DNA from: Cheilinus undulatus
Taxonomy: Eukaryota; Chordata; Actinopteri; Labriformes; Labridae
Direction of reading: 5' to 3'
DNA length: 64,000 nucleotides
NCBI RefSeq assembly: GCF_018320785.1
Contig: NC_054873.1
Location: 24,022,196 to 24,086,195 of the forward strand
Both the position numbers and the translations under genes were made by a program. Below the pieces are notes generated by a model, which was given only the letters and a program-made list of their open reading frames with translations, did no database searches and had not been told where the DNA came from. Below, piece after piece: positions 12,318 to 64,000 of the stretch (position 1 is the stretch's first letter; every line of letters begins with the position of its first letter).

Positions 12318-13137
12318 GTCAACTCTGTCTGATGTTTGTCAACTCTGTCTGATGTTTGTCAACTCTGTCTGATGTTTGTCAACTCTGTCAGATGTTTGTC
12401 AACTCTGTCAGATGTTTGTCAACTCTGTCTGATGTTTGTCAACTCTGTCAGATGTTTGTCAACTTTGTCAGATGTTTGTCAACTCCATCAGATGTTTGTC
12501 AACTCTGTCAGATGTTTGTCAACTCTGTCTGATGTTTGTCAACTCTGTCAGATGTTTGTCAACTTTGTCAGATGTTTGTCAACTCCATCAGATGTTTGTC
12601 AACTCTGTCAGATGTTTGTCAACTCTGTCAGATGTTTGTCAACTCTGTCTGATGTTTGTCAACTTTGTCAGATGTTTGTCAACTCCATCAGATGTTTGTC
12701 AACTCTGTCAGATGTTTGTCAACTCTGTCTGATGTTTGTCAACTCTGTCAGATGTTTGTCAACTCTGTCAGATGTTTGGCAACTTTGTCAGATGTTTGGC
12801 AACTCCATCAGATGTTTGTCAACTCCGTCTGATGTTTGTCAACTCCGTCTGATGTTTGTCAACTCTGTCAGATGTTTGTCAACTCTGTCAGATGTTTGGC
12901 AACTCCATCAGATGTTTGTCAACTCTGTCAGATGTTTGTCAACTGTCAGATGTTCTTTAACTCTGTCAAAAGTTCACCAATTCTTTCAGATGTTTGCCAA
13001 CTACACCAAATTTTCATTATTTACCTCTGATGTTTGTCACCTATGTCAGATGTTTTCAACTCCATTAAATGTTTGTCAACTTCATCAGATGTTAGTCGAC
13101 TTTGACAGATTTTGATCAGATGTTCATCAACTCAGTC
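12318..13137. repeat. 20-bp minisatellite, about 31 regular units plus decayed tail
   Basis: The unit aactctgtcagatgtttgtc is repeated in perfect 20-bp register from 12321 to about 12940 and then decays to about 13137. Units differ mainly at bases 4-10 (tctgtct, tctgtca, tttgtca, tccatca, tccgtct) and at one late base (ttggc for ttgtc). Because 20 is not a multiple of 3 and no frame meets a stop in the unit, three 20-codon-period open frames run through the array (the longest, 12336-13115, 259 codons). I regard these as by-products of the repeat, not genes. Variant units are arranged in a repeated order (see findings). Confidence 0.95.
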
Positions 13138-16397: not shown

Positions 16398-17068
16398 ATA
16401 ATAATAATAATAATAATAATATCTGGAATTTATATAGCATCTTTCAAGAAACCCAAGGACGCTTTACAAGAAACACATAAGACATGAACAAACTATGTGA
16501 TGGGTAGGATGGGTGTGAGGGGTGGTTTAGTGAAGACTGTAGGCTGTGGTGAACAGGTTGGTGCTTGAGACATTTTTTGAAAATGTCCAGAGATGGAGCG
16601 CTACGGATGTCTGCAGGCAGAGTGTTCCAGAGGGTGGGGGCTGCAGCACTGAAGGCTCTGTCTCCAAGGGTTCGGAGTTTGGTTTTGGGTATGGAAAGTA
16701 GGCCAGTGTCTGAAGACCGAAGGTCGCGGGATAGTGTGTATGGATTGAGGAGATCAGAAAGGTACTGAGGAGCCAGGGCATGGAGAGATTTGTATCTGAG
16801 GAGGAGGATTTTGTAGTTGATGCGGGACTTGATCGGGAGCCAGTGAAGGTGGATGAGGATCGGACTGATGTGTTGCCAGAGTCTAGTGCGGGTGAGGACT
16901 CTAGCAGCAGGGTTTTGGATGTACTGAAGCCTGTCCAGGGTTTTGCTGGGTACCCCAGACAGGACTCCATTACAGTAGTCCAAGCGGGAGGTTATGAAGG
17001 AGTGAATGAGTGTTTCTGCCACAGGGTCAGGAAGTGAAGGTCTGAGTCTGGAGATGTTCATCACAGTC
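16398..17068 (-). mobile_element. 5'-truncated L2/CR1-like LINE, second subfamily
   Basis: Minus strand 17064 to 16444 is a 206-codon open frame with the LINE C-terminal series PVAETLIHSFITSRLDYCNG, KTLDRLQYIQNPAARVLTRT, LHWLPIKSRINYKILLL, LRSSDTGLLSIPKTK and RAFSAAAPTLWNTLPADIR. It ends in an (ATA)n microsatellite at 16398-16422 preceded by the standard tail 'ggaatttatatagcatcttt'. It lacks the YADD region, so it is a dead 5' truncation, but with no stop in the remaining frame it is younger than the copy at 1484-2745, from which it differs in sequence. Confidence 0.85.
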
Positions 17069-45923: not shown

Positions 45924-46201
45924 CTGATCACTTTGATGACCAGGCATGTGATGAGAGCAGCTGTTAACACGCAGATGAAAATAACTATGTTTTTCAGAGT
46001 TGGCAGATGCGTCATGATGGATGAAATCCGGGATCCCACGGCAGCATCTGTGACATTATTCGTCAGTTCGTCTTCGCTGATGATGGGTGATGATGATGTT
46101 GAATTTAACTGCGTCGCGGGTAAAGATAGAGTTTGTGGTTCGCCGCTGACCCGCCAAAGAGCCGCAACGATTAAAGTTAACGCTAGATTGTACGTCAACA
46201 T
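45924..46201 (-). CDS. fam174b: fam174b coding exon 1
   Basis: Residues 1-92 and two bases of R93: signal peptide, ectodomain and membrane span. I chose the ATG at 46201 over the one seven codons upstream (46222, MFFYYIT) because its context is CACCATG and it starts the hydrophobic signal sequence directly; the upstream one has a poor context. Donor AG|gtaggc. Confidence 0.88.
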
Positions 46202-46620
46202 GGTGATATAATAAAAAAACATACGCAGATTCTTCCTTTTCCCAGACTAAATGAAATGCGACAGCGGCTGTCACATTATAAATTATCGGGTTTTCACAGT
46301 CAGATTTGGCTCAAAAAGAAAACGTGGACCGCAGATAGCATATCCGTCTCTCTTTTAGTCCGAGCTCCTCTTGTCGCGGTTTTTAGGGTCGTATCTTAAA
46401 ATTTCTTCCAAAACGTGTTTCTCTCCTTGAGGTGAACAGTAGCAATTCCTTCCTGATTGCATTAGAACTCCGTGTAGAGATGGGGATTATCCGCCTCCGG
46501 AAGAGCTCTGCAGGCTTGCTCGCTGCTCCTACTGCTCAAGAGGGGAATTATGTGTGCTCGTGGTGCATTCAGGTTCCCCTCGGAATTCCTAAAGACGGTC
46601 AAATGATATTAGCCGTTTAA
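46202..46620 (-). promoter_or_regulatory. fam174b: fam174b promoter and 5' UTR region
   Basis: Sequence upstream of the fam174b start is richer in G+C and CpG (46320-46520) than its surroundings, consistent with a housekeeping-type promoter. Transcription start not determinable; no TATA box seen. Confidence 0.45.
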
Positions 46621-46924
46621 GTTGAAGGAAAAGTTTTGCACAAGTGTTCGCTTATATTGTTCATGTTCGAAGGGTCTTAATAATAGTTTGCTACATATAA
46701 AGATAAACGTAACGCTTTAAAACAAAATAGGCCTGTACGAAAATTGGCGAAGTTAGTGGACGAGTGAGGGGCTGATTAAATACTATCATACGGCTATGTT
46801 AGTGGTTCATTCGGAGTTACTCTTCTTATGTTTTTTTCTTTCTTTCTATATTTTTGTGTGTTTTTTTGGTGTTTCTTTGTCATTTTGTAAAGTACTTTGA
46901 AATACCTTGTTGCTGAACTGTCCC

Positions 46925-47065
46925 CAAGACAGTCTGGCTGCAGACCGTTCATTTGAGACGCTGTTGATCTCAAAGCGGAAATACTGCTAAACTTTCGAAA
47001 TAAAATCGGATTAAACTTCCAAGGGTTAGGGTTAAGGTAGACGTAGATAGGGTAGAAATTTAGAG
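46925..47065 (-). repeat. Fragment of the AGCTA-minisatellite TIR element, copy 3
   Basis: 'agtctggctgcagaccgttc' and 'tttcgaaataaaatcggatt' 'aaacttcca' match, in order, the reverse complement of the right end of copy 2 (40840-40979). Only one end is present; the minisatellite is missing. A short ttagggtta stretch at its edge comes from the element itself. Confidence 0.7.
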
Positions 47066-47334
47066 TAATGCTTAACAACTTAAACTATTTGTTCAGAAAG
47101 GAAGATAAAAAGTGAAATGTGGATTCCAGATATGGATTTGTGAATAAAAATGCAGATTTGTTCATACAAAGCAAAGATTATTAATACTTCATACAGTGTT
47201 AAAATGTATTTTATACTGCCTTAAATGTATTAGCTCAGAGGAGTAAAAAATAAAAAGTCTGATTTTTTCAGTTTGGCTACAAGAATGAACTGTTATGTTG
47301 TGATCAGCAGAGTCTGTTTGTTTAATTATATTCT

Positions 47335-48325
47335 AAACTTTGAACAAAAAGTAACGAAATGTGTGTTTGGTAGATTATTTCTTTCTTGTAACAATGCTTC
47401 TTGGCAATAAATCTTATATTGTTGGAAAGACTGTTTATTTCCTTTTAAATGGTGACACATTTGTAAGGAACATGTATTTGTGGGATGAGCAGCAGAGCTG
47501 AGTATGTGGGTTGTGCCCATGAAAAATTCGCCAAATCTCTGCCAATGCCAAACAGCTTATTCTTCCGTTGACTCTTGTTTGGTGTTGTTTGGTGGATTGG
47601 ATGACTAAAGTCTGAATAAAGAAGACATATTGGCAATTTAACAATTTAGTTATTTAACAAACAGGAGCCTTAGCAGCGTGTGGAACAAGCATACACAGCC
47701 ACAATAGCCTGGCACCTCCTCCTCATGCTGGTCACCAGCCTGGTCACACACTTTAACCAGCATTTGCCACAAGCCAGCCAATGTGGTTGTGTTGGTCACT
47801 CTGGCAAGAACAGCACGCTCAAGCTGATCCCACAAGTGTTCAGTGGGGTTGAGGTCAGGACTACTGGCCATCCTTTCCACTCCCAAATTCTGCAGGTAGT
47901 CTCTGATGAACTGTGGGGCAAGTGTTGTCATCTTGGAGGACAGAGTTTGGTCCCAGAATGTGGAGATACAGGATTGCCACTGGTCGCACAATCTCATCTC
48001 AATATCTCTCTGCATTCAGTTTGCTTCCAATGATGGTAATCGGGCACTTGGTAGTCTGCATCAGGAGGTACCAGATACTCAAACAAGAGTCAACAGCCAA
48101 ATAAGTTGTTTGGCATTGGCTTGGAAAATTTGGCAAATTTTTATGGGTGCAACCCACATACTCAGCTCTGTTGTTTATCCTGCAAATGCATGTTCCTTAC
48201 AAATTTGGCACTGTTTAAAATGGAAATAAACAGGCTTTACAGTGGTATAAAATTGTATTGCCTAGAAACACTGTTAAAACAAAGAAATGGCCTGCCAAAC
48301 ACATTTCCATACTTTATGTGCTAAG
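47335..48325 (-). mobile_element. Tc1/mariner-like relic with long inverted repeats
   Basis: Arms of roughly 240 bases, 47335-47585 and 48085-48325, are inverted (for example 'tttgtaaggaacatg' against 'catgttccttacaaattt', 'actgtttatttcc' against 'ggaaataaacaggc', 'caagagtcaac' and its complement). Between them the minus strand encodes the C-terminal part of a DDE transposase: YLQNLGVERM, SPDLNPTEHLWDQLERAV and VTNTTTLAGLWQML, including the third acidic residue of the DDE triad (E of PTEHLW). The paired/HTH DNA-binding half and the first catalytic Asp are absent, so the element is dead. Exact ends and TA duplication are blurred. Confidence 0.8.
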
Positions 48326-48514
48326 TTTATTTCTTTTTTCAATTTTCTATCATAACTCTCAGAAGTAAAGTTCTTTTTTCCAACTTGAGAAAACATCTGG
48401 GGCTTACACCCTCTTAGCCACCCTCTTGCTCCACCTATGATAGCTACTTAGTGCTTGACAATGTTGTAACCACTGCCTGTAGGCTAACTTTTTGTGCCCC
48501 CATAGTAAAATGAA

Positions 48515-48765
48515 GTATGATGGATAGCTGCACAGTAGAGTACCCTAAGCTGTCTCATGAAGTCAACAGTTCAATTCCACCCTAGACAGTCATGTTAAAA
48601 TGTCCTTAAGCAAGATACTGAACCCCAAATTACTCTCCCAGCTGTATCAGTGGCATGTAGGCTATACAGCCATCACCATCTACAGTATAAGTAACCTGTG
48701 GTGTAAAAAAGTCCTTTATATAGACAGAACACTAGAAAAGCACCATACAGGCTCATGTGCATGTA
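48515..48765 (+). repeat. Common teleost repeat with 'aagatactgaaccccaaatt'
   Basis: 'agttcaattccaccctagac' then 'gtccttaagcaagatactga' 'accccaaattactctccc' and 'agaaaagcaccatacagg' form a decayed version of a very abundant fish repeat (ggttcgaatcc ... tccttgggcaagacactgaa ... gaaaagcgctatata). The family name is uncertain. 48326-48514 and 48767-48847 show nothing. Confidence 0.55.
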
Positions 48766-48847
48766 CCACCAGTACTTGACTGTTAATCATATCATTTGTT
48801 CCCCCTATAGTAAAAACAACATCAAACTGAGTAGGAGAGAGTTATAA

Positions 48848-48866
48848 CCCCCCCCCCCCCCCCCCC
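48848..48866. repeat. Poly-C run, 19 bases
   Basis: An uninterrupted run of 19 cytosines, isolated in AT-rich DNA. Length may be affected by sequencing error. Confidence 0.9.
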
Positions 48867-49435
48867 ATTAACTAATGACTATAAGTAATGGTTGGTTTTA
48901 ATGTTTTTCTACAAAAATACATAAAATGTTGTCTATCTTACTGTAAAGTGTTACAAAAGTAATTAATTAAAGGGGAATTCATTGGGTCTCTAAATACTAG
49001 TTTAATAAGTTGATTACTGCTATTATTATTACTGTTAATTTTACCACAAACTGTTGCTGTGGTCTAGATCTGTCAACTGGTATATCTGAGTCACACTTAC
49101 ACAAAATTAACTGTCAGTGGACTCTTATTTCATTAACTGCATGATACATGGGAACATACCAATGAATTTGGACACACATATTAAGTCAAAATGCAAAAAG
49201 GAGCATATTATACTATTTGAATTACAAATGGATAAACATGTGTGTCGTCATTTACACTACAATACATGTTTGGAAGGGACAAATGAACGATTAAGTAAAC
49301 AAAAATAATCTAAAGATGCTTGTCAGGCTGCTGTTTCTTACTATATTACACTTGTAAAACCGTTATATAAACGCAATGTAACTCTTAATGCCATGCTGTT
49401 ATACTGAATATCACATGGTTATTAATTTCAGCACT

Positions 49436-49687
49436 CAGTTCTTGAGAATTGTCATTTCTTGATTAATTATGCTGTTGTCTATATACAATCAATACCAAAT
49501 AATGCAGATGAAAAGTACATTTAATTTATGTCAGCGTAATTAGGTTATATAAAAACCTAATTAGTTCTTGAGAATTGTCATGTCTTGATTAATTATACTG
49601 TTGTCTATATACAATCAATACCAAATAATGCTGGTAAAAAGTACAATTAATCTATGTCAGCGTAATTAGGTTATATAAAAACCCCAT
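49436..49687. repeat. 126-bp tandem duplication
   Basis: 49436-49561 and 49562-49687 are nearly identical copies (start 'agttcttgagaattgtcat', end 'aattaggttatataaaaacc'), differing at only a few positions. No coding frame is involved. Confidence 0.92.
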
Positions 49688-52600
49688 GCAGAACAATAAG
49701 TGTCTTTTCTAGCCAATAGTTCTGCAATAATCTGTATGGTTGAATCTACTTACATTTTTTTTTAATACTGTGGACAAATTAAAGAGGAGAAATCTTGTTT
49801 CTACAGTGTTTGCATGGAAACTTTGTTTTAACAACAAAACATACTTTTAAAAAATCTCTTATGCTAAAACCATTCTTATCCCATTTCAGCAGCAGGCATA
49901 TTTTGGCATTTGACTGGCAGTTAAGTTATAAATTTCTTACAGCATCTGAAGGCAGCATTTCTCTGTTTACCCATGAGCTGTGGCAAACAAAATTTTCCAA
50001 GGGCAGTAGACACCCGGGCCACGACCACAGATTCCAAGGAAAATCTCTGGAAGAAAAGACAGTGATTGATCCGTGGCGGGGTTAATCACTCACCAGATCT
50101 ATGGCCTATAGGCAGAATGAAAAACACAGAATCAATCTAGTTTTATCTCACTCCCTCAGCCAAAAGGACCTACTCAGTGTACGACATATCTTTATTTATA
50201 TTCTCACAAGACTTCTGGTTTGCAATCTGCACAGCACTATAAAAAATCATCCATTTTGCTTTGTACCGTTAAGTGCAGTTTGAGGTACTTCAAACTGATG
50301 CTGCATTTCTTACAGCGTTTAAACCTGCAGGGCTCCCTTTATCTTAAATCAAAGTCAAGACTGCCTGTCTTGTTTCGTCTGGTTTGATGTCCTGTCTTAT
50401 TGCATTTCACCTATTACTGAGAGAGATGGCCCTCTACTGTGCTCCATGTGAGAGCATTTTGTTGCTTGATCAAAGCCCACCAGATGGCAGCACAAAATAA
50501 CAACAGGGCCCTGTAGAATTTACTCCATGCAAAGGTCAAAATTCAAACATGACTTTATAAGCAGTCTCTTCAGATGAGGCATTATCCAGTCCATTAAATG
50601 TAAAGGAGGTTACGTTTGTTTCTATAAAACAGGGTGGGATTTCAGATTAGATGTCCACAAACATGCATGTAAAAACTGTATTGTGCTGTAAAATGCTGTT
50701 GCATTCACTTTATCTTGATTTTATATGGACTTTTAATGGCAATAGAGTGTGTATTGAGATTTAGTTGCTACACTTAAATTGATTTCTGGCTATGGTAGAT
50801 TTCCATATTCTGAGAGGCATGGGCAGTACTGGGTCTGATGGTGTGAAACTGGCCAATAATACACCTTGGTCCTATGCTTTGGAACCCCTAAAAAGCTGCC
50901 ATTAAACATACAAGGGCCAAAAAAGTCTACATATGTTATATGTAACATATTTAACATATACTTATATATAACATAAGTTGAATTCTACTTTTTTGCCTGA
51001 CCCAGAGCATACATCCAAATCTACAAAGAACAGCTTCACCAGAAGAGGACAGAAGTTTGGGCCAGCCCAGCCCTGAATCCTGCTGTAAATCTGTGAGGTG
51101 ACCGGGAGAGGGGGCACTGCACAGGAAGTACTCTCACAATCCGACAGATTTTAAGCACTTTTTCAAGGAAGAGTGGGCTAATTTTGCTATGTGGAGGCTG
51201 GATACACTGATAGACTCCTACCCTAAAGGAATGAAAGCTGTAATAATAGTGAGAAGGATCAAGGATAAAGAGGGAGTTAGTCCTTGCTGCAGGTTAATGT
51301 GAGATCTCTGTGTGCTTGAGTTCCATACACACTTACACAACTGATACAAATCCTAGGGGCTTAGGTACCTCTGTACAATATGACAACCTGTGCATGAATG
51401 ACAATTTGTCACAGTAATGACTATTTTCATGTAATGTAATCAAATCCAGATCATTTGAACATGCATTTGCAAATTTTGTTCTTGCTTGTGTTTCCAGAAG
51501 CAGAGCAACAACAATTATCTGACAACCTGCCTCCTCTAAATCAAATACAAACACTTCCCTGTTAAAACCATCCATCTATTCAGTCAATACAGGGTCGTGT
51601 TCAGTTCACTTGAAATACTTAGATTTGTAATGGACCTGCACAGCACATCTGTTGCTAGGCTGAGGTTCTTTTTATAGAAATCTTCCATTTCAATGAGCAT
51701 GCGCTGTGCTGTTGAGCTGCTCATTGGTCGGTGATGGGGGTGGAGTGCATACCACAGACTTCATACACTTTCCAATAAAGGCTGCACTGACTGAACAGGG
51801 TTTTTCAAGTTTGGTGGGCTATAATGGGCTGCTAATTTTATTCTGTCAAACTGTCAGTTTTGCTGTAACAAATAATGTGTTACATGCCACTGATTCAGTC
51901 ATTTTGTAGAAAACAGGGAACACTTCTATCAAGCATGATGCACTACGCAAGTGTTCAATTCCACTTATTCAGTTACCCTCACTTTCAAGGTTTTGTTAAG
52001 GTATTTATCATTTTTTTTAAAACAAACAAATGCAATATCGAATGACATAAAGCCTCAAGTCTTTATACCCACCTTCATTTCTGTGAAAAGGTTTTAGTCA
52101 TTAACAGTGTTAGGAACTGACAATCTCAGTTCACCAAAGTAGTGAACAGGCTTAAAACACAATTTAGAAAAAAAAGTTTGAGGAACAAAAGAAAATGTTG
52201 TCAACATGTGCCTGGAAATAATTGTGTAATTGCTCATTAATTAACATGTTTGCACATACATTTCAAAAAGCTAAAAAGAATAACTTTAAAAGCACACAAG
52301 TAGACAAAGAAAACACACCTAAATTTGTTTTTTAATGTAGTTCTCAAGAGTTATGGCTAATGAAAGGGAAATGGGCTAAGTTTCAGTGGCCTGTGCTAAG
52401 ATTTCTTTTAAAATAAAGGCTACTCTACACTCTGTGATACACTACAAGCTTGAAAATAACGTGTCATTAAAAATACGTTCATTTCATGTTTTAAGGTTAC
52501 ACGGGTTATTTGTTAAAAACTTACGTTGCATTTATTAATTTATCTCATTGCTAGCAAGAGAGAGCTTTACCTATTTTAACAATGATACATATATATTTTT

Positions 52601-52689
52601 AACTAGTGCTAAGTCACACTAAAAACTTTTAAAGTACGGTTAAAGTTGAGTCTGTTGTCTTGTTAGGCGGGCTGCTAGTGTTAGCTTGA
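49688..52689. other. Intergenic, no gene recognised
   Basis: No repeat or ORF was recognised. The non-repetitive part around 50330-50640 could be a conserved element, but this is not testable here. G+C and CpG rise from about 52660, approaching the next promoter. Confidence 0.4.
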
Positions 52690-52933
52690 TGGGGCTGGAG
52701 AGGAAGTAGAGTTTGGCTTACGTTAGAGGAAAGTGGGCAGAGCCGTTGAAGGATATCAGCTCAGGCAGAGGCAGAGAGGAGGACACAACCAGCAGAGGAG
52801 CAAGGCGTCGACAGCAGAGGGGAGGAAGCGCGGAACGATGCTGCCGAAAGAGTCACAAAAACGACAAAAATCGCCCACAAGAGCGACACTGACCGTGGCA
52901 GATGACGGGGGATAGACACGGCCTGGGAAATGG
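52690..52933 (+). ncRNA. chaserr: CHASERR-like exon 1
   Basis: CpG-containing, GC-rich purine-rich stretch ending AAATGG|gtaagaac, a strong donor. The 5' end is set by the rise in G+C and is approximate. It contains a 25-codon ORF (MLPKESQKRQ..., 52838-52915), open further upstream but without another ATG; I see no sign that it is a real protein. Confidence 0.6.
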
Positions 52934-54321
52934 GTAAGAACTGACCAGTAATAATACCTTATAAGCCGTAAAAGACGACTCAGGGGTGTATGGCAAAATG
53001 GTGGAAAGAACGACAGTTAGACGCAGTGTTGTGAAAATGGCCATGGTGTGTTGTCAGGGAAGAAAAGATATCAATCGAGGGAGTATATCCAGCTAATAAT
53101 TTCGGTTTAGCTGTTGGAATATGTATGTTTTGTAGCTGTGTTTTGAGATAAGTTGGTTAGTATTTGGAAACGCAATTTGTTCTCGATCTGTTTGGAGTTA
53201 TTTCAACCTACGCATTTAAAATTTGCTTTGTCCTTGAAAGGGCAAATGCCCTTGTATGAATTTGCTCGACGACATAATCAAAAAATCTGCAAACATTTAG
53301 TGTATTGAAGGTTGTATTGACATTGATGAACGTCAGTACACCATTATAAAGAAATTTTGCTTCTTTTCAGTTTAGTCGTTTTTGGGAGTTTTTCAGCGAT
53401 TTGTAAATATGAAAATATGTGAAAAAATGTCAATTTTTCGCAAAATCTTATGACAGAGTGTACCAACATGGTAAAACCTTGAATTGAGCAAGTGATTGGT
53501 ACTTAATACTTATAATTTATTAATAGTTTTTTATAAATTGCTGTAAGTTGTTTAAATGTATAAAAATTATGATTAACACAACATTTTCCATTGTAGGCAT
53601 TGAACATAAACTTGAAGTGATTTGTTTGTCAAATAGAGGCTCTATATGTTATGAAAAGCTTACATATACTTCGAAATACAAAATAGGGTGTTGGCTTTTA
53701 ACCCTTTCAGGAACTGACTGGAGAAGTAATTTAAATCTGTTCAGTTATTTGTTTTTCCCAGTAAAAATACACTTCCTGAACAATAAAGAATAACATAATT
53801 TTAAAAAGGGTTGACTACAAGTATGGGAATTTCTATGGAAGGTCAATATACCATATAATAAAGAATAAAGAATTTTATTTTTGTCAGTATCATTGCCTCT
53901 CAGACATTGTGGTAAATTTATCCAGATAATAGAGCAAAGATTAAACATTAGGTAACAAATTCCATACCATCTTTTATGGCTGATACTAAACTATAATGTC
54001 AAATTAAAACAATTAATACAACATTTACACAACAAAATGTTGCGTCAAAGCTTTTCTCAACAGGGTGTTACTGTCCAAGACAAATTTAGTTGCATTTTAG
54101 CCACTTTGACAAACAATGATAAAACATTTGTAAAATACATAAGTCTAATTACTTGCGCATTTTAAAATATGTTAATGAGCATTGAAATATTCTCACATAT
54201 AATCTTTGACAGTCTTGTGAAGCCAGTAGTCATTTATGTCCCCACGTTTGTGCCAATGTATGATATGCTTTTGTTAGCTGTTATTACAAAATTGTAATAA
54301 ACATATTTTGGTATTTTGCAG

Positions 54322-54373
54322 GATTCTACTGATGTTTCCAAGTTACATCAAAGAAGATGACCCAAGCTGAATG
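54322..54373 (+). ncRNA. chaserr: CHASERR-like exon 2
   Basis: 52 bases after gtattttgcag, with donor AATG|gtatgt. Contains an AAGATG word (54355-54360). Confidence 0.6.
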
Positions 54374-54503
54374 GTATGTTTCTGACAGAAAAATCATGTT
54401 TTTCAGTCTTACGTGCTAATTGCTATTACTGCTTATTTCATATAGCCAGTAGGGTGTGCTGTTGTCACATTTCCTTTCTGAATCTTTTGTTTCTTTTTTA
54501 AAG

Positions 54504-54574
54504 GGTTGACATTTAGCCACACTCACGAGGGCAAGAATTGATCGATCGGCAATATTTGCAGTGCAGTAGTGAAT
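54504..54574 (+). ncRNA. chaserr: CHASERR-like exon 3
   Basis: 71 bases between ttcttttttaaag and GAAT|gtaagt. The intron before it is only 130 bases. Contains GATCGATCGG. Confidence 0.6.
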
Positions 54575-55689
54575 GTAAGTATTACTTTAAAGTTTGTTCA
54601 AATGTTTACTGAGAATCTCTTGTATGATATGTTATGTGGTCTTAATTTCTTCATCTGTGTCTAAATAAAGTAACTTATTTTACTTACAATGCTAATGTCT
54701 GAAAAATCATCAGCAGGAACAGTGTACATTGTGAATACTTAGTAAATGTAGTAACTAAACAAAGTACTTGTCATGTTTTGAGTATATCCTCTAGGCACTG
54801 TAGTGATGAAGGTTGACTGAATCAAATGACAATCGCAACTGAATGTTGCAAAGCTCTGCCCTCTAGTGAATGGTGCTACAAAGGCGTACATATAAAAAAA
54901 TATATATTTATACGGTTTCAAATACCTAAAGGTACTTTATTGTTACTTTGTAACAGTAGTGTTAGTATTTTTAATTCCATCTCATTTAAAGTGTGTTGAT
55001 TCTTAAGTCTTTGAGATATATCATTAAAATAGTTTGGTAGTTATGCATAATGTTGCAACCATTAACTACGGCATGGGATATGCTCCAAAGTTGTCTTTAC
55101 AGAGGGAGGAGTGGGGTTTTTTTTGTTGTGTTTTGTTTTTTTACATTTCATTAATTTTTAAAATACTGATAAAAGTTGGACTGAAAGCATTTTAAACGTT
55201 AAAAACGGAGTAATTTAAATATATTTTATTCAAATTAACAGTTATTTTGAATAATTTCCAGATCTGGCGTGTGCTTTTGATGAGCTTCAGTCCTGAAAAC
55301 TAACTTATGAAACTCTTAACTTTGTAACAATTATTGATTTTACCGTAACAGTGTATTATGGGGTCCTGATAACCGACAATCCAATCACAAGTAAAATCTT
55401 ATGTAGAATATGAAAAAGCATATGCAAGCCTAATTTTGTTGGCTACTTTGTCCAAGGAGATATTTCATATCGCACGCTCATACCCAATTTTTTTCTTGTT
55501 AAGGCACACGTCAGACAAACTTAATGAATTTTGTTAAAGTTTCTTAAATTTTAGAACACCTCTTTAAGCATGGTCTAACTGTATGCAACACAAGTAAGCA
55601 TTAGCGACAAAATCAACTTGATTAAATTGTTTCATATCGTAGTATTCTGACAGCCCTCAAATAACACAGTAGTACGGCACTCTGCCTAT

Positions 55690-56130
55690 CCCCTGTCACC
55701 CTGTTCGTGATTTCTTCCGTCACTTACATTGACATGAACAAGAGAGAAGGAAAGAGGGAGATGACAAGATACCAGGAGTGTCAACAGGATGATTTTCTTA
55801 GTTTTCTTTCACTTTCTTTACTCATCAGAGCTGTAACACTTGTTTTACAAAGTGGGGTTAACCATGCATTGAAATGTCCAAATCTGTGTTTGACATGTGT
55901 TTTGACTTGTATCAAAATGGGGGTAAAACTTTAGGGCTCACAGCTTTCAAAGTTTTGAATGTGTTTATCCACATTTAGACTGAAAGAGTTAAATTCAAAC
56001 TGTCAACAGGGAGGAATCTGTATTCAAAGAGTTCAGAATAAATATTCAATAGATGCAATGAGGACAGCAAGCAAGCGATGCTGTGCAATGCAATTTGATG
56101 TCTGAGGCTCACATGCTGTCAGGACACAGA
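55690..56130 (+). repeat. Diverged repeat in CHASERR-like intron 3, copy 1
   Basis: Shares ordered blocks with 57225-57675: 'cttacattgacatg'/'cttacatagacatg', 'aggagtgtcaacaggatgat'/'aggagtgtcctgcaggaaga', 'ttttctta', 'gtgttttga', 'caaagagttcag'/'caaagagagtt', 'agcaagcgatgctgtgcaat'/'gagcatgcaatgctcaacaa'. Same strand. Family not recognised. Confidence 0.6.
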
Positions 56131-57224
56131 GTTAGTATCACTTCTCCCTCACCGACCAATTAAAATCAAGAAGGGCGGGACTTCTCATATGATCTTTGTC
56201 AACAACAAGGCTGGAGATGGAACTAATGCTCATAGTTGTCATGCATTGTTATGTAGTGAACATTTCAAGTTCAACATCTGCAATATTCAGATTTTATATA
56301 TGTATATATTTTAATATTTTCACATAGAAAAATCAGACATTAAGCATACAAAGCAGTTAATATCAGACATATTAGCCACTACTAAGAACACTGAAAGACA
56401 ACTTAAGATTTATGTCAGAAATAAAGTAAGTAAGTAAACTTGAGTGAGAAGTGTTCTGAAACCGCATTATAGGACATGTGATGCAAGAGAGTTATGACCT
56501 TTCAGACTGGTTTTGGTTTTTCCTGCTGCGCAAGTCCACTCCAGCACGCACCATTACAGCTTTCATGCTAGGTGTGTGTGTGCTGCTAGTCGGCTGTTTC
56601 TCCCTTCTGTCACAGTCCTGTCTTCATAAGTTTTAGCTTAAGAAATCTTCCTACAAGTGACATGATTCATAGTATAGCCAAACTAGGCTGGAAAATTCAG
56701 AATAAGAGCATTCTGTAAAAACTACAGGGGTTACTCTTAAGTTATACTAAACCAGGCTTTCACCAACAGGAAGTGTTGTTGTACTGTGTTTTTCTTGTCG
56801 TGACATTCTATCAGTATGGAAACAGAGAGCCTCATGAATAGCTGATGTTCAAGGAACAACTTAATTAAACACATTTCAGCTAGTGACCGCCATCTGGGTC
56901 ATCAAGAAATAGATTGCATATTTACTGCTGTGGTCTTGTGTATCTGTTAAAACAAAGTAAATGTGGCTCTCTATTTCAGTCAAGAGAAATTGTCGAGCCC
57001 TCTATTTACTAGATTTTCTGTGTCTGGTGCTAGATACATGCAGGCAGTCTGATAGACCTGACTTGTTAAGCAACCAAAATCAAAATCAAGCAGTGTTGCA
57101 GCAAAAGATGAAGAGAGATGACGCACATCTCTTGTGCCCAGTCTAAAATGGGCTTTAATGACAAAGTCAGCTTGCTTCCTTTGTTTCACTTTAGTTAGTG
57201 AAAAAAGTGGTGTGACATGATGGT

Positions 57225-57675
57225 TATCCCACCCTTTTCACTTTCCTTTCTGTTGCTTACATAGACATGTATAAGGAATAACAAGGGGGATTGAAAAGGT
57301 GCTAGGAGTGTCCTGCAGGAAGATTTTCATGATTTTCTCAAGCTTTTTTTTTTGGTTAACGGGGATTATTAGTTTGTTACACAGGTTTGGAGTTTTGGAG
57401 TGTTTTAATAAAACGTGTTTGAAACATGCTCCAACTTAGTGTTAACATGGGAAGCAAAACTTTATTTTACTCACTGCTGTCAAAGGCCCGTCTATACAAA
57501 TCACCTCACTTCTGCTTCCCTTTGTCCAAAATAAACATGCTGAATTGCAAACTATCTACAAGGGAATGCAGAAATGCAAAGAGCAAATTCAAAGAGAGTT
57601 AAATATTAAGTAAAAGTGGTGTGGACAGTGAGCATGCAATGCTCAACAATGTCTGGTGTTGCATGCCCTAGGACA
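57225..57675 (+). repeat. Diverged repeat in CHASERR-like intron 3, copy 2
   Basis: Direct-orientation relative of 55690-56130 about 1.5 kb downstream. Sequence between the copies (56131-57224) and after (57676-58858) shows no other recognisable feature. Confidence 0.6.
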
Positions 57676-58858
57676 CACTGATGGTGGACCCAGACCCTTT
57701 TTCTGCAATCTTAAAAATTATATCTCCAACCAATACTCCTCAGACAGTAACGCATGTTAGACAGAAAAAAGTACAGTTCAGCACAAGACAACAACCACCT
57801 GCTTGTTCTGAAGCCTTACAAGCTATGGATGATGCCATGAGAAACACTTGCTCCAAGCAAGCAATCATCCACCCCTGGTGCAGATAATAAGGCCTCCAAA
57901 TGAATACCGCTAATTTGCAGTTCCTCAAATGGCCACTTGGGGCAGAAACAAAAAGCTAGTCAAAGCCTATACACCCATGTGCAAAAGCCCACCTGGACAG
58001 AAGCAAATAAACATGGCTGAATAATTGTAAGTCAGTACCCTGGCTGCACTGGACACTTGTGGTTCCTTTAAGATCCTTTTTTGATCATATGTGCCACTGA
58101 ATTGCAAGAAGGAACTATATAAATTGACAGAAGCCCTTCTATTAAAAAGCCAAATATTAAAAATCTTACTTTGATAGTCAGAGGCCTAAAGCCAAACCCA
58201 AACAGAAGGCAAACAATTTGATAGTTAGACAATAAAACTGTGTTTGTTTAAAAAAAAAAAAAATGCAAAAGATGGTATTTTAACAGTCCAGAGAGGAGTC
58301 TTGGGTGCTCAATTTTTTAAAATACACAACCAAGCTTAAGCGCTTTCAATCTGTACAGTGATGTTCATTTTGATTCAGTACATGGCAGAAATAACTAGAC
58401 ATGATGCTCCATGGATCATATACCAAAGGCACTGCTAATTTTGCCCTAAACAAGAAAATTGTGCACATGTACAAAGTAGTTTGTACTTCTCAAAACAAAA
58501 GACTTGACGAAAAACTGTTTTGCATTTGGCCTTGTACACGTTGTTTACACAGGATGTCCATAACCATGCATGTAATTGCAATCACCAAAACAGTAGATTA
58601 GTTTCCCATATCTAATTCCTACAAATTAATATTAAGTTTGGGACCTAAGCCAGCTGATAAACAGTTATATTGATAAGGTTTGCCAAAATCCTTATTATTT
58701 CTTAGATTTTAATCCTTTAGAGTAATTCATGCCAGGCAATTTTTAAACAATGTGAATCAGAACCATACTGTTCCAACGATTTAAACCTTTAAGGATTTCT
58801 ATGTGGACCATATGTTTGTTTTTATGGGGATCATTTATGGCTCTCTCTTTTTTTACAG

Positions 58859-58915
58859 GAGAGATGTGGACCACCTGGGAGGTTTACGAATTTTGAAGAA
58901 AAAGAAGACATCTCG
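58859..58915 (+). ncRNA. chaserr: CHASERR-like exon 4
   Basis: 57 bases between tctctttttttacag and TCTCG|gtaagt, both strong signals. Purine-rich end (ttttgaagaaaaagaagac). Confidence 0.65.
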
Positions 58916-60093
58916 GTAAGTTTTTACATTAACAAGTGTTCGTTCTTGTGCTGAATGAGTATTATGAAATAATAGAAATAGAACTCTTTTGTAAGTTGAG
59001 AACACAGCACTTACATTTTAAGCAGGCTTTTCCCAACATCTGATATTATTTTGCTGGATCAAAAAATGGTTTGCTGCTTTTAGCTCTTTTGGCTAGCCAG
59101 TAACCTAATGTTAGCTAATAATGTGCATGGACATGGGGTTTTACATGTACATCAACTTCAGTTCATGCACAACCACGTCCAGCTTGTGGCTACTCCTATA
59201 ATAACTACATACACTTTATTTGGATTCATGCAGACATTAGCTATATTTCTTTTTGTTTTATTCAACAGAAAGAACTACCATTCTGCAGCAATAGCTGTAA
59301 TCAAAATGTTTGTCTTTGAGTAGAATTCATGATAAATCTCAGTCAACACCATTCAACTTTGATTAGAATATCTTCTCAGATTTTGATCAGTAGATATATG
59401 ACTCGGAGGATTGGTTGTAGGGTTTTGTTAATTGTTAATGGATGCTATTATGTTGACTATCTGCTGCTCTGTTGTGTCATTGCTGGCTCTGATATTGTCA
59501 ATTCAGACATTGAATGGATCTTATTTTATTTTGGATTTGTTTGCCCACATGCCAGTGTTTCGTTGGTTTAAGCTTCATTATAATTAACTATATTTTTAGA
59601 TATGACTGCTGTTTTGCCATTGTTAAGTGTATGCATATTAATTATACCCCTAGTGGTGAGTTGATGAGATGATTTGTAAGCTGCTGAAGCATTTTGTTTA
59701 GGTATCAGATAGCTGATAACTTTGAATTTAGCAAACAATATCTAAGTTCTTAGGCTTGACGGTAAATTGACAGAACTGCCGTTATATAGGAACAAAAATA
59801 AATACTCACTGACTAGCATGTAACAGTTATGATGCTGGAGGAGAAAAAACAATTAATTGTCAACATTTTGTCAAAAGGATGACTTTAAGATACATTTTTA
59901 AATGAACATCTCCAACTGAAACCTAGCTCAATGAGAAGCACTTGCCCAGTGCTAGCTTATGCGACTGATTACTAGCAGTGTAATTTTTAGCATTAATTTT
60001 AGCATAATTTCTCAAACTGTTAGGTAGTGAATTATTCCGTTTTTCAGTTGCACTGTGGGCTTACAACTTTTCCTTCTTTTTTATCCTATCAAG

Positions 60094-60385
60094 ACCCCCA
60101 TTCACCTGGATAATGCTGAAGTGAAGACAGCGTTGTTTAACGTGAAGATGGCAACTGATTTGGCTATTAGCCAAAGTTTGACAAGATGAAACTGTTTTCT
60201 GACTGGACTTTGATGTTTGGATTTTTTGATTTTTGTACTTCAACACGGACTGTGGAAGACCGTCGCTAGCAGTATAATGGACTTTTTGCAAAATGGCATT
60301 GTTCTCGGAAAAGCACAAAATCAGCAATTGTACATTTGATATTCAGATGTTGTTTTTTTAATAAAGTGTATGTACTCGTAATTTT
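60094..60385 (+). ncRNA. chaserr: CHASERR-like last exon with ATGG/AAGATG words
   Basis: Acceptor: the long pyrimidine tract ending ttatcctatcaag at 60093 is preferred; tccgtttttcag ending 60047 is an alternative. Words present: AAGATGG (60145-60151), AAGATG (60183-60188), ATGG (60277-60280) and AAAATGG (60290-60296). As I recall, comparative work on mammalian CHASERR singled out AAGAUG and AUGG-type motifs in its last exon as deeply conserved and bound by the helicase DHX36. The exon ends 10-30 bases after AATAAA. Confidence 0.7.
60360..60365 (+). terminator. chaserr: Polyadenylation signal of the CHASERR-like RNA
   Basis: AATAAA after a T run, followed by GTGTATGT and, 25-40 bases on, a T/G-rich tract (cctggctttgtgtctt). 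Confidence 0.75.
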
Positions 60386-61070
60386 CCTGGCTTTGTGTCT
60401 TAGCTAAACTGAAATACCACAGAGATATTTATCAATTTTGAGAACGCTGAAGTCGATGTAGCTTGGCTATTGTTGTAGCCAATTCGCCTCATGTTTTGTC
60501 TTTGCACTGACTTTATTAGTTACCGAAGTTTTGCCCATCAAATCATTAAACTGGTTATTTTTAAGCTTTAAGCTGGGTAAATGAGTTATGAAATAATTAT
60601 TTTGCATTCGTATTGATTTGGTAGTAAATATTTTGTAAAGTAAAGAAAAATGGCTAGTGAAAATGCAACATTCTGCTTCGGTCCAGCGGTCTGTTTTAAT
60701 GTAATTCAATGGTCATAAGAGTCAGTGAATTCAAGTTATTTGTTATGTAGTGCATTACAAGTAGTTTTAAAAGTTGTTCCAAAAATGGTTGCCAAAGGCT
60801 TTCTAAAATGGCTTCTTGCTGTCCTTCTTCCTGTCTGAGCAGGAAGTGATGAAATTGGTGCAGAAAATTATATACACATTTTAACAGCCTCCAAATATTC
60901 TTAACTTTTATAAAGTGGGAGTAGATGTTTCAACATTTACGTGGGGGTTTAGGGGAAAAAATGTATGTAATTTTCTATATAACTAACATTGAAACAAAAT
61001 AAAAGGGGTGGGACTTAACATCACCTGAGTGCTGGGTAAATGGAAATAACGTCAATCAAAGGCAAAGCTT
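60386..61070 (+). other. Spacer between CHASERR-like RNA and chd2 promoter
   Basis: About 0.7 kb of AT-rich sequence without ORF or recognised repeat. Confidence 0.5.
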
Positions 61071-61420
61071 TCAGAGCTAGGAAGGAGCTCTACATGGCGG
61101 CTGAGCCTTGGGAAGGGTGCCATAGGCTTTCGGAAGACCGTTTTTCTTGCTCGTTTTTTCACCAAAATCGATCGATTTTGCTCTAAATCTTAGTGTTTAC
61201 GTGAACGGTCGCTCTTTTATCGTAAATTTCGGGGTTTTGTAAGGTTTTCTGGCTGTTTTTCGGTGCCGTCTGAGCTGTGGGAGTGCTTGTCGTTGTTTTC
61301 CATACAGGGCTCTGGCAGCCATGGCGCGCCTCCATTTTTAGTGTGCTGCTCGGCTCTGTCTCTCTGAGTCTGACAGTAGATGTAGACTGTAAAGGCCTAC
61401 AAGCTTTTTGAAACAAGTTT
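61071..61420 (+). promoter_or_regulatory. chd2: chd2 promoter and non-coding first exon region
   Basis: G+C and CpG rise sharply. CTACATGGCGGCTG (61090-61103) is a good YY1 site, a motif that in many housekeeping promoters lies just after the transcription start. CAAAATCGATCGATTTTG (61163-61180) is an 18-base perfect palindrome. The leader probably runs from about 61080 to a donor I cannot fix (TTT|gtaagg at 61249 is a weak candidate), joining to 61895, or is unspliced. Confidence 0.6.
61094..61186 (+). promoter_or_regulatory. Candidate upstream ORF of chd2, 30 codons
   Basis: ATG (also the core of the YY1 site) to TAA, encoding MAAEPWEGCH and 20 further residues. If transcription starts before 61094 this would be the first ORF met by ribosomes. 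Whether it lies in the mRNA is unknown. Confidence 0.35.
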
Positions 61421-61944
61421 CTTTTTATAATTTATTTTTAAGTTATTATTTTTATATTTTGTTATTTTTATTCGAGTCGGGTTGAACCCTCTGACAAAGC
61501 GAACGCAAATCTAATAGTTCACTTTTAGGTTACCACCTTTCTCTTCATTGAATTACTGTGTTTACATCGTGTAGTGTATCAATATATGATTTTTTCATCT
61601 GCAAATCTGATTTTTCTTATCCTTCTTGTGATGACGCAGTTAGAATTAATTGCATGCGGCTTGATACGTGGACAATATTGAAAGACAAGTGTTGGATATT
61701 TTACTTATTGTAGAATCACTGGTCGTTTTTCTAGACTATTTTTTAAATAATCGCTGTAAATAATGACCTCTAAATCTTTCGATTTAATGTCTTTTTCATT
61801 CTTCGTGTCGCATTGCCTGGGTTTTAACTGCCACCTGAGCAAAGGCAACCTTACGGGACTTGAACGATAGTTCATGCCTCTAACTTTTTGACAGTAAATA
61901 CCAGGACAAAAGATCATCCTTTCAAGATTGTCAAGGATACTACG

Positions 61945-62006
61945 ATGATGAAGAATAAAAGTAAAAAACAAGAGGATGAAGGATCGACTCAAAGCAACGC
62001 ATCAAG
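61945..62006 (+). CDS. chd2: chd2 first coding exon (gene continues past window)
   Basis: ATG ATG AAG opens MMKNKSKKQEDEGSTQSNAS, which aligns with human CHD2 [20 protein letters not shown]; the exon closes at AG|gtatga with a split codon. CHD2 is a large (about 1800-residue) SNF2-type chromatin remodeller with tandem chromodomains. Only the extreme N-terminus, ahead of the serine/acid-rich region, is in this window. The exon's 5' boundary is probably 61895, after taactttttgacag. I looked for the next exon (a Ser/Glu-rich stretch) up to 64000 and did not find it, so intron 2 is at least 2 kb. The gene lies on the same strand as, and just downstream of, the CHASERR-like RNA. Confidence 0.9.
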
Positions 62007-64000
62007 GTATGATCGTTTCACTTTTTTCCTTTTACCTTTCCTTAATGTGATTTGATTGTTTACATTGTCAAGCATGGTTGATCACCTGTGTATTCATTTG
62101 CTTCGTGGATTAATTGAAGTGCACCACTGTCATGAATGACCTTGCTATTGTTTAATAGCCACACCCTGATTTTTTCTACCATTTCTAACACTCAATACTG
62201 AGGTTTCAGGCCTATGTTAAGACATCATAGCTCACAAGATGAATGTTTTGGACTCAATTATCCTTCATTCTTTTGCATATGGGTTTTTCACAAACGTTTC
62301 ATGTCCTATCGTCACAAAGTAAAATGACCTTGTCTTAGTAGTTGGTACTGCAATGCAGCATTTTAACATAGAAGTTGTTAGATTTTGTTCATTAAGAAAC
62401 AACATATCTCATGATGTTATCTATGCTCATCAATACATCTAGTCCAGCTTAGATTGGCTGGATTTAAAATACTATGTCCTCAGTTATTTAGATTGATTTC
62501 ACTTTGCTTTTGGAAACTCTTTTATTTTTATTACATTCTCTGTGATTTTCAATCTCTGCCTTCCAAAATATTTTATAGTAAGTCACAAATTTTTGAAGAA
62601 ATTGGATTTTTCTCATGCACTGCAATTCCTGTTTTGTTTTCTTTATTAATTCTCAAGTTATTAAGTTGTAAATTATATTTTTGTGTTTCAGTAAAATTTA
62701 AAACTACATTTGAACAACTGTTTTGATGTTATGTCACTGTGTACATGCTTATGTAACTTATTCTTTAAATACAATATTATTCCAGTTATTTTTAGAGCAT
62801 TATTGCAAAAACAGTCTCAACATTATCACAAGCCTATAAATACAATATTTTTTCTATCCTTAATCATATGATTGGTATTTATTTTTACTGGTTGAATTTA
62901 CATGCATTTTCTATTTAAAGCAGATATTTATATATTGGCTTAAAGTATTGACTGATTTGTAATTTAACCTTCTGTTTTCAATGTCTGATATATTTTAAAG
63001 CAAAGTGTTCCTTTCTATTTTATCTGGTTTAATATGTATTGTCAGATGGTTATTATTTAAAGACCTGTGGCCTGGAATCTGTACACATAAATGTTGTTTT
63101 TGACACTGCTGTTTCAGTTTCTTCTCTTTAAAGGGCCAAATTTGAAAGTATATATCTGTCATCCTCAGCTATCTGAATCTTCAAACATCTAAACTTGAAA
63201 CTCCACACTTTAATGCTCAATAAAGATGTCTTTAAATATCAGGTGATGTGCGTGCTGTCAGGATTATGCAAGAATTCAGAAAGTACACAAGAGGCCTGGT
63301 GATACTTCAAGACTTCAGAATAAATTCACAAATATTATGGATTCTTTTAGGTTCTGAGGAATAGAATTGCTGCCATATACTCACTTAAAAACATGCAGCT
63401 GTACCATAGCTGTTTTTTTACTGTAGAATAAAGAAAGCTGAATGATAAAGCAGGTGATCTCTCTACATTGTACTGATTGAACACTGCAGTATGTTACATC
63501 ACGCTTGTAGTTTCTCTGTGGGATCTTGTGGCAGCCATTTTAGTCTTTTTCTGCTATGTGAAAAATGTCCTCTGCTCCTGATGACAGCCTAACTTTTTCA
63601 TATTGGTATATGAATACTGGGACATGCAGAGTAGCAGAATGTGCAGCCAAAAGATTGGGGGATTTTTTGTTATGAATTATCTTCCTTAAATAACTATATT
63701 CAAGCTCTCCAGCGTCACAAAATGGCCCTTGCTTTGTGTGCCCAGCTTGCTCACTTGTCTGTATTAAAACTCTGCTCAGAGAACTACATGGAGGAGGAAC
63801 AGGAAGAGTTCAGAGTCAGGAAAGCTTGCACACTCTGCTCCTATAGGCCAGAATTCCACCTAGCAACCAGCCAGCCAATGATAATTCAGAGGTTCTTTCT
63901 ATGTCCCGCCTACCTTTGACCTCACTTAAAGCAGAAGGAGCCCTTCACTTCCGAGTTTGGTCATTGAAGCAGCTGAAAGTACCGGCTGTGAAATTTAAGA
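62007..64000 (+). other. chd2: chd2 intron, no exon recognised
   Basis: AT-rich to about 63480. 63640-63919 has a 92-codon open frame with no family resemblance; its G+C is higher and it may be an interspersed repeat, which I could not name. Confidence 0.6.

Follow-up and report, generated by a model that had tools for sequence, protein, structure and literature searches.

In a 64-kb window of the Cheilinus undulatus genome (the whole stretch of DNA analysed here), we identified a candidate chaserr gene, the fish counterpart of the mammalian long non-coding RNA (lncRNA) gene CHASERR, at 52.69-60.38 kb on the plus strand, just upstream of chd2. Because of its position and strand, the predicted number and length of its exons, its own promoter-like patch, its poly(A) signal, the lack of a long open reading frame (ORF) and the presence of AAGAUG elements, we give a probability of roughly 0.9 to the reading that this interval is chaserr of this fish, a predicted non-coding RNA gene immediately 5′ of chd2, on the chd2 strand, that would have its own promoter and be spliced and polyadenylated. 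A preliminary description had proposed this identity from five short spliceable plus-strand segments without a long ORF, followed by a poly(A) signal and ending on the chd2 strand about 0.7 kb before the chd2 promoter; each of these features was recovered in our analysis, and the identity is well supported. That description had also presented the finding as notable, which does not hold, since zebrafish and all examined vertebrates were already covered by PMC6841665, and fish by PMC7798263. According to PMC6841665, Chaserr has five exons and is transcribed independently, its tandem order and exon structure have been retained across the vertebrates, and homologues were found in every vertebrate examined, with zebrafish RNA-seq named in the legend of Figure 1a. 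Zebrafish and other fish are among the 16 CHASERR sequences described in PMC7798263, with five exons, lengths of 579-1313 nt and a GC-rich first exon, and a BLASTN search from zebrafish chaserr is reported there to recover other fishes. The occurrence of chaserr in a fish is an expected and already published one, and ours is a sound identification, not a discovery. The new information from this locus consists of a predicted exon map that is compact, a distance of some 0.7 kb from poly(A) signal to chd2, and genome searches that gave no hint of a second copy. Few lncRNAs can be followed from fish to mammals as Chaserr can, and CHD2 is described in PMC6841665 as a dosage-sensitive remodeller whose haploinsufficiency leads to human epilepsy and neurodevelopmental disorders; a compact fish locus with predicted exons would make the ideas about cis-repression and AAGAUG testable outside mammals.

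The exon model was derived by reading 52.2-64.0 kb and scoring splice sites with generic vertebrate frequency matrices. Since the window stops inside the intron that follows the initial coding exon of chd2, the next 60 kb were added, giving an extended region of 124 kb in which the chd2 exons follow in order. The same matrices were used in a splice-and-codon model of chd2 (35 exons and 1,728 residues, from the ATG at 61945 to the end of the stop codon at 81895 in extended coordinates), which was trained on peptide pieces hand-picked from the same locus, misses one exon and truncates another, and is a control for splice scores, not an annotation. Its 34 modelled introns have donor scores of -1.4 to 9.0 and acceptor scores of -0.8 to 9.0. 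The sites of the five predicted chaserr exons (E1-E5; Table 1) lie inside this range, with the acceptor of E4, the clearest of the exons, above it. The donors of E1 to E4 score 3.68, 2.78, 3.73 and 5.05, respectively; those of E1, E3 and E4, like the acceptors of E2 and E4, exceed the chd2 medians, and the donor of E2 and acceptor of E3 fall slightly short of them. E2 has a rival donor at 54453, and the start of E5 is ambiguous between 60094, with 25 pyrimidines in the 30 upstream positions, and 60048, with a higher score (3.69) and 17 of 30. The spliced transcript would measure 714 nt, or 760 nt from 60048, inside the published length range. Sites of equal strength occur as decoys in the same interval (a donor at 59655 and acceptors at 53371, 53711 and 56616), and the exon chain is therefore unproven by sequence alone. 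Thus, the signals for five exons are present, with two choices for the last acceptor and decoys alongside, and the chain is a prediction.

We compared the region with controls by counting pairs of sites resembling an internal exon, using cut-offs that were picked after the sites had been seen. The region holds four such pairs, two of them sharing the E2 acceptor, which makes three distinct exons. None was found on the reverse strand; shuffled sequences had a mean of 0.86 pairs, with four or more in 5 of 200; and between zero and three occurred in 14 strand-windows from seven control windows, which include exons of neighbouring genes and one of which (46177-53872) extends 1.2 kb into the region, so that two of the 14 strand-windows overlap it. 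Thus, 195 of the 200 shuffles and every one of the 14 control strand-windows have fewer pairs than the region.

The AATAAA at 60360 is a candidate end for chaserr upstream of chd2, with the cleavage site assumed; further hexamers of the poly(A) type are present at 59797, 60545 and 60998, and T and G make up only 53% of the positions 20-60 nt past the signal at 60360. In PMC7798263, the k-mers common to 16 of 16 CHASERR sequences are the poly(A) signal and a last-exon AAGAUG. The model transcript has three copies of AAGATG, one in E2 and two in E5, and 19 of 2,000 shuffles of E5 reach two. Among the 265 AATAAA sites tested on both strands of the 124 kb, the chaserr site was the only one with two AAGATG copies within 267 nt upstream. 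Three matches to AARATGR, the core common to both published CHASERR motifs (PMC7798263), were found in E5 at 60145, 60183 and 60290, and no shuffle among 2,000 reached three. On the plus strand, one of 130 AATAAA sites, that of chaserr, has three or more AARATGR upstream.

CpG is depleted over most of the region (median observed/expected ratio of 0.25 in 1,235 windows over 124 kb), and against this background we observed preserved patches at the predicted start of chaserr and at the 5′ end of chd2, about 8 kb apart; near the FAM174 start the ratio peaks at 1.24. These peaks fit unmethylated promoters, which argues for a chaserr start separate from that of chd2. E1 has a GC content of 56.6%, ranking fourth among 13,900 positions in 46.8-60.9 kb, and the three higher ones overlap E1. 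First exon and promoter are thus GC-rich, in a milder form than the "extremely G/C-rich" of the description in PMC7798263. Further CpG-preserved patches were seen at 54801-55800, in chaserr intron 3, and at 60001-60800, over the last exon.

The predicted chaserr transcript would be non-coding: the longest ORF starting with ATG has 29 codons, or 66 with the acceptor at 60048, and for the latter no protein homologue was found among candidates that share 5-residue words with it and have 0.55-1.75 times its length. A scan of the window with Rfam at gathering scores gave no matches, so the locus is unmarked by any catalogued RNA family. We also searched the genome for copies (1.17 Gb in 46 contigs, the window being part of contig 9). 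When E2-E4 joined to the first 101 nt of E5 were used as query, all four matches among the best-scoring candidates were the gene's own exons, and the N-terminal 125 residues of chd2 gave two matches, both its own exons, in a search that a copy with a diverged N-terminus would escape. Within these searched parts, there was no sign of a second chaserr or chd2 copy.

Several observations weigh against the identification. The E5 acceptor at 60094 is weak by score (-0.07, with lower values in 3 of 34 chd2 introns). Three or more AARATGR also occur upstream of 3 of 135 minus-strand AATAAA sites, and this relaxed motif is therefore less specific. The AAAUGGA motif of published CHASERR sequences is absent here, with 0 copies in the model transcript, though it is reported in 11 of 16 published sequences and so is not obligatory (PMC7798263). 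The RNA structure of E5 shows no extra stability relative to shuffles (z = 0.73; 148 of 200 fold as well or better), and no run of four GG pairs was found in E5 counted from 60048; E1 has one such run, and the GGG version is in neither exon. Finally, the 124 kb contain 19 CpG patches with a ratio of at least 0.6, and these also occur away from gene starts, as with a patch peaking at 1.01 near 92.6 kb, to which we assigned no gene.

Two other explanations of the interval were considered. The predicted exons could be alternative 5′ exons of chd2, with E4 spliced into chd2 and no separate gene. The strong E4 donor would be suitable for this, and the short ORF of E4 is open and in frame when joined to chd2 exon 2 (65404), but a fit of that kind is a one-in-three coincidence, and joining E4 to the chd2 first exon at any of three possible acceptors leads to a stop within 21-30 codons. 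While the RefSeq last exon of mouse Chaserr overlaps Chd2, the main mouse isoform ends before it, according to PMC6841665. In the window, the unit could terminate ahead of chd2 at the poly(A) signal at 60360, and chd2 has a CpG-preserved patch of its own. Two short strings of the E4 peptide were in none of the 120 CHD2 homologues listed of 1,652, a weak test as many records lack the N-terminus. Overall, we consider this explanation very unlikely. Alternatively, there may be no gene here at all, and the splice signals may have arisen by chance in intergenic DNA. The equal-strength decoys and the late choice of cut-offs favor such a view, which is opposed by the excess of internal-exon pairs over shuffles and by the coincidence of a CpG-preserved start, a poly(A) signal, a family motif and the family position; we regard it as similarly improbable. 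A mixed case, in which the chaserr unit besides its own poly(A) end sometimes splices E4 into chd2 exon 2 in frame, yielding a short basic chaserr-encoded CHD2 N-terminus that would replace the normal one, has in our view a very slim chance of being correct. If true, a repressor RNA and an alternative CHD2 start would be two outcomes of one transcript.

Taking the interval as a predicted chaserr gene, it is more likely than not, by analogy with mammals, that its transcription together with the nascent AAGAUG-bearing RNA holds chd2 down on the same chromosome in this fish. Transcription of chaserr, plus nascent RNA with the last-exon AAGAUG elements, would lower chd2 in cis; abundant CHD2 protein may act on the short stretch that separates the chaserr poly(A) site from the chd2 promoter and thereby disturb chd2 initiation, closing a negative feedback loop. 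We infer both the production of RNA from the predicted exons and a working loop in this species. In mouse, Chaserr represses Chd2 in cis and early postnatal lethality is reported, and the proposed feedback has CHD2 acting downstream of the Chaserr end to interfere with the Chd2 promoter, by an exact mechanism that the text of PMC6841665 calls unknown. The evidence for cis repression, and for the effect of blocking last-exon elements, comes from mouse, plus knockdown in human cells. Among the titles and abstract openings of papers on chaserr together with zebrafish, teleost or morpholino in one open-access library, we found no perturbation of chaserr in a fish; passages of PMC11549340 name Chaserr only as an example and in the references.

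It is also conceivable that chaserr is present and acts through DNA or transcription alone, e.g., by promoter competition for shared enhancers, with the mature RNA as a by-product, an explanation that concerns the mechanism and not the identity of the gene. The two promoter-like patches some 8 kb apart would be compatible with it, and removal of the mouse Chaserr promoter is reported to raise Chd2 enhancer contacts (PMC6841665). In addition, that paper describes no repression of mouse Chd2 by Chaserr cDNA provided in trans; this also tells against the RNA-dependent reading we prefer, and an RNA-based step is therefore unproven even in mouse. On the other side, PMC7798263 describes a rise of Chd2 with two of the three oligos directed at last-exon elements, and finds DHX36 associated with Chaserr, with a preference for the last exon in its unmutated form. 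The elements targeted by the oligos are present here, and we consider action through DNA or transcription alone rather unlikely.

Compared with known CHASERR genes (human LINC01578, mouse 1810026B05Rik and zebrafish chaserr), the locus shares the same-strand position upstream of chd2, five exons (predicted here), a similar spliced length, a GC-rich first exon, a last-exon AAGAUG, an AAUAAA end and the lack of a long ORF. It is more compact than that of mouse, with about 8.4 kb between the chaserr and chd2 starts (both inferred) vs about 17 kb, and about 0.7 kb between the poly(A) site and the chd2 start vs about 2.2 kb. An ORF of 26 codons ends in exon 2 here, whereas in mouse it is one of 117 codons that ends there. 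A parallel drawn in the text of PMC6841665 is the SRG1-SER3 pair of budding yeast, in which tandem non-coding transcription likewise represses the next gene. However, SRG1 overlaps the SER3 promoter, with starts about 500 bp apart according to the source, and no sequence relation is claimed.

Table 1. Predicted features of the chaserr-chd2 interval (positions in the window).
Feature	Position	Strand	Details
chaserr exon 1 (predicted)	~52690..52933	+	donor TGG/GTAAGA at 52933, top 1.0% of 3694 GT sites; start approximate
chaserr exon 2 (predicted, 52 nt)	54322..54373	+	acceptor 5.43, donor 2.78; one AAGATGA
chaserr exon 3 (predicted, 71 nt)	54504..54574	+	acceptor 4.06, donor 3.73
chaserr exon 4 (predicted, 57 nt)	58859..58915	+	acceptor 9.53, top 0.05% of 4196 AG sites; donor 5.05
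chaserr last exon, E5 (predicted)	60094 (or 60048)..~60383	+	AATAAA at 60360; cleavage site assumed
AAGATG pair in E5	60145..60189	+	copies at 60145 and 60183; 2 vs 0.17 expected
CpG-preserved patch, likely independent chaserr promoter	52401..53700		CpG observed/expected up to 1.05
CpG-preserved patch, chd2 5′ end	60801..62200		peak 1.14; ATGGCGG at 61094
chd2 first coding exon	61945..62006	+	begins MMKNKSKKQEDEGSTQSNAS; first exon of 35-exon model

The identity of the downstream gene was assessed from the modelled protein. Among the 120 matches listed of 1,652, named fish CHD2 proteins were as much as 90% identical to residues 1-1,261 along the whole query, and chromo and SNF2 domains were recognized in an N-terminal portion of 578 residues. 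The middle part gave nine matches to CHD1-type structures in the PDB; as none is a CHD2 chain, they establish no more than the family. Upstream of chaserr, sialyltransferase exons lie at 24.5 and 36.3 kb on the plus strand, presumably st8sia2 by gene order. Two FAM174-like pieces were found at 44.6-46.2 kb on the minus strand, one above the Pfam cut-off and one below it (24 vs 27.7 bits). In human, FAM174B and ST8SIA2 are on the same side of CHD2.

The distance between the two genes depends on where chd2 begins. From the assumed cleavage site to the ATGGCGG at 61094, a motif that we take to be YY1-like and use as the inferred chd2 start, the gap is 711 nt, and chaserr is thus in same-strand tandem position less than 2 kb upstream, as expected of CHASERR. 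The gap would be smaller if the donor at 61007 (score 3.31) closes a non-coding first exon of chd2. Human CHD2 has a non-coding first exon, and here the donor at 61007 together with acceptors at 61308 and 61735 leaves space for a separate one. Between 61036 and 61944, no donor scoring above 0 was found before the chd2 ATG, and the start codon of fish chd2 may share its exon with the 5′ untranslated region. Some CHD2 homologues, e.g., that of Cyclopterus, have an N-terminal extension like the translation just 5′ of the window's chd2 ATG; therefore, the chd2 first exon is probably continuous across the sequence just upstream of 61945 and reads straight through there.

Repeats were also observed in and around the locus. 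The segment 56655-56976, in chaserr intron 3, is 67% like 75843-76180 (extended coordinates) in a chd2 intron, the only match when 52.3-61.0 kb was compared with the 124 kb, and probably stems from an ancient interspersed element. Two tandem copies of 126 bases with 94% matches occupy 49437-49683, some 3 kb before E1. Farther upstream, a 20-base unit is repeated about 40 times with 86% matches at 12318-13114, open as a repetitive frame of 260 codons, and minus-strand frames at 1831-2908 and 16444-17067 look like what we take to be LINE-type retrotransposon reverse transcriptases.

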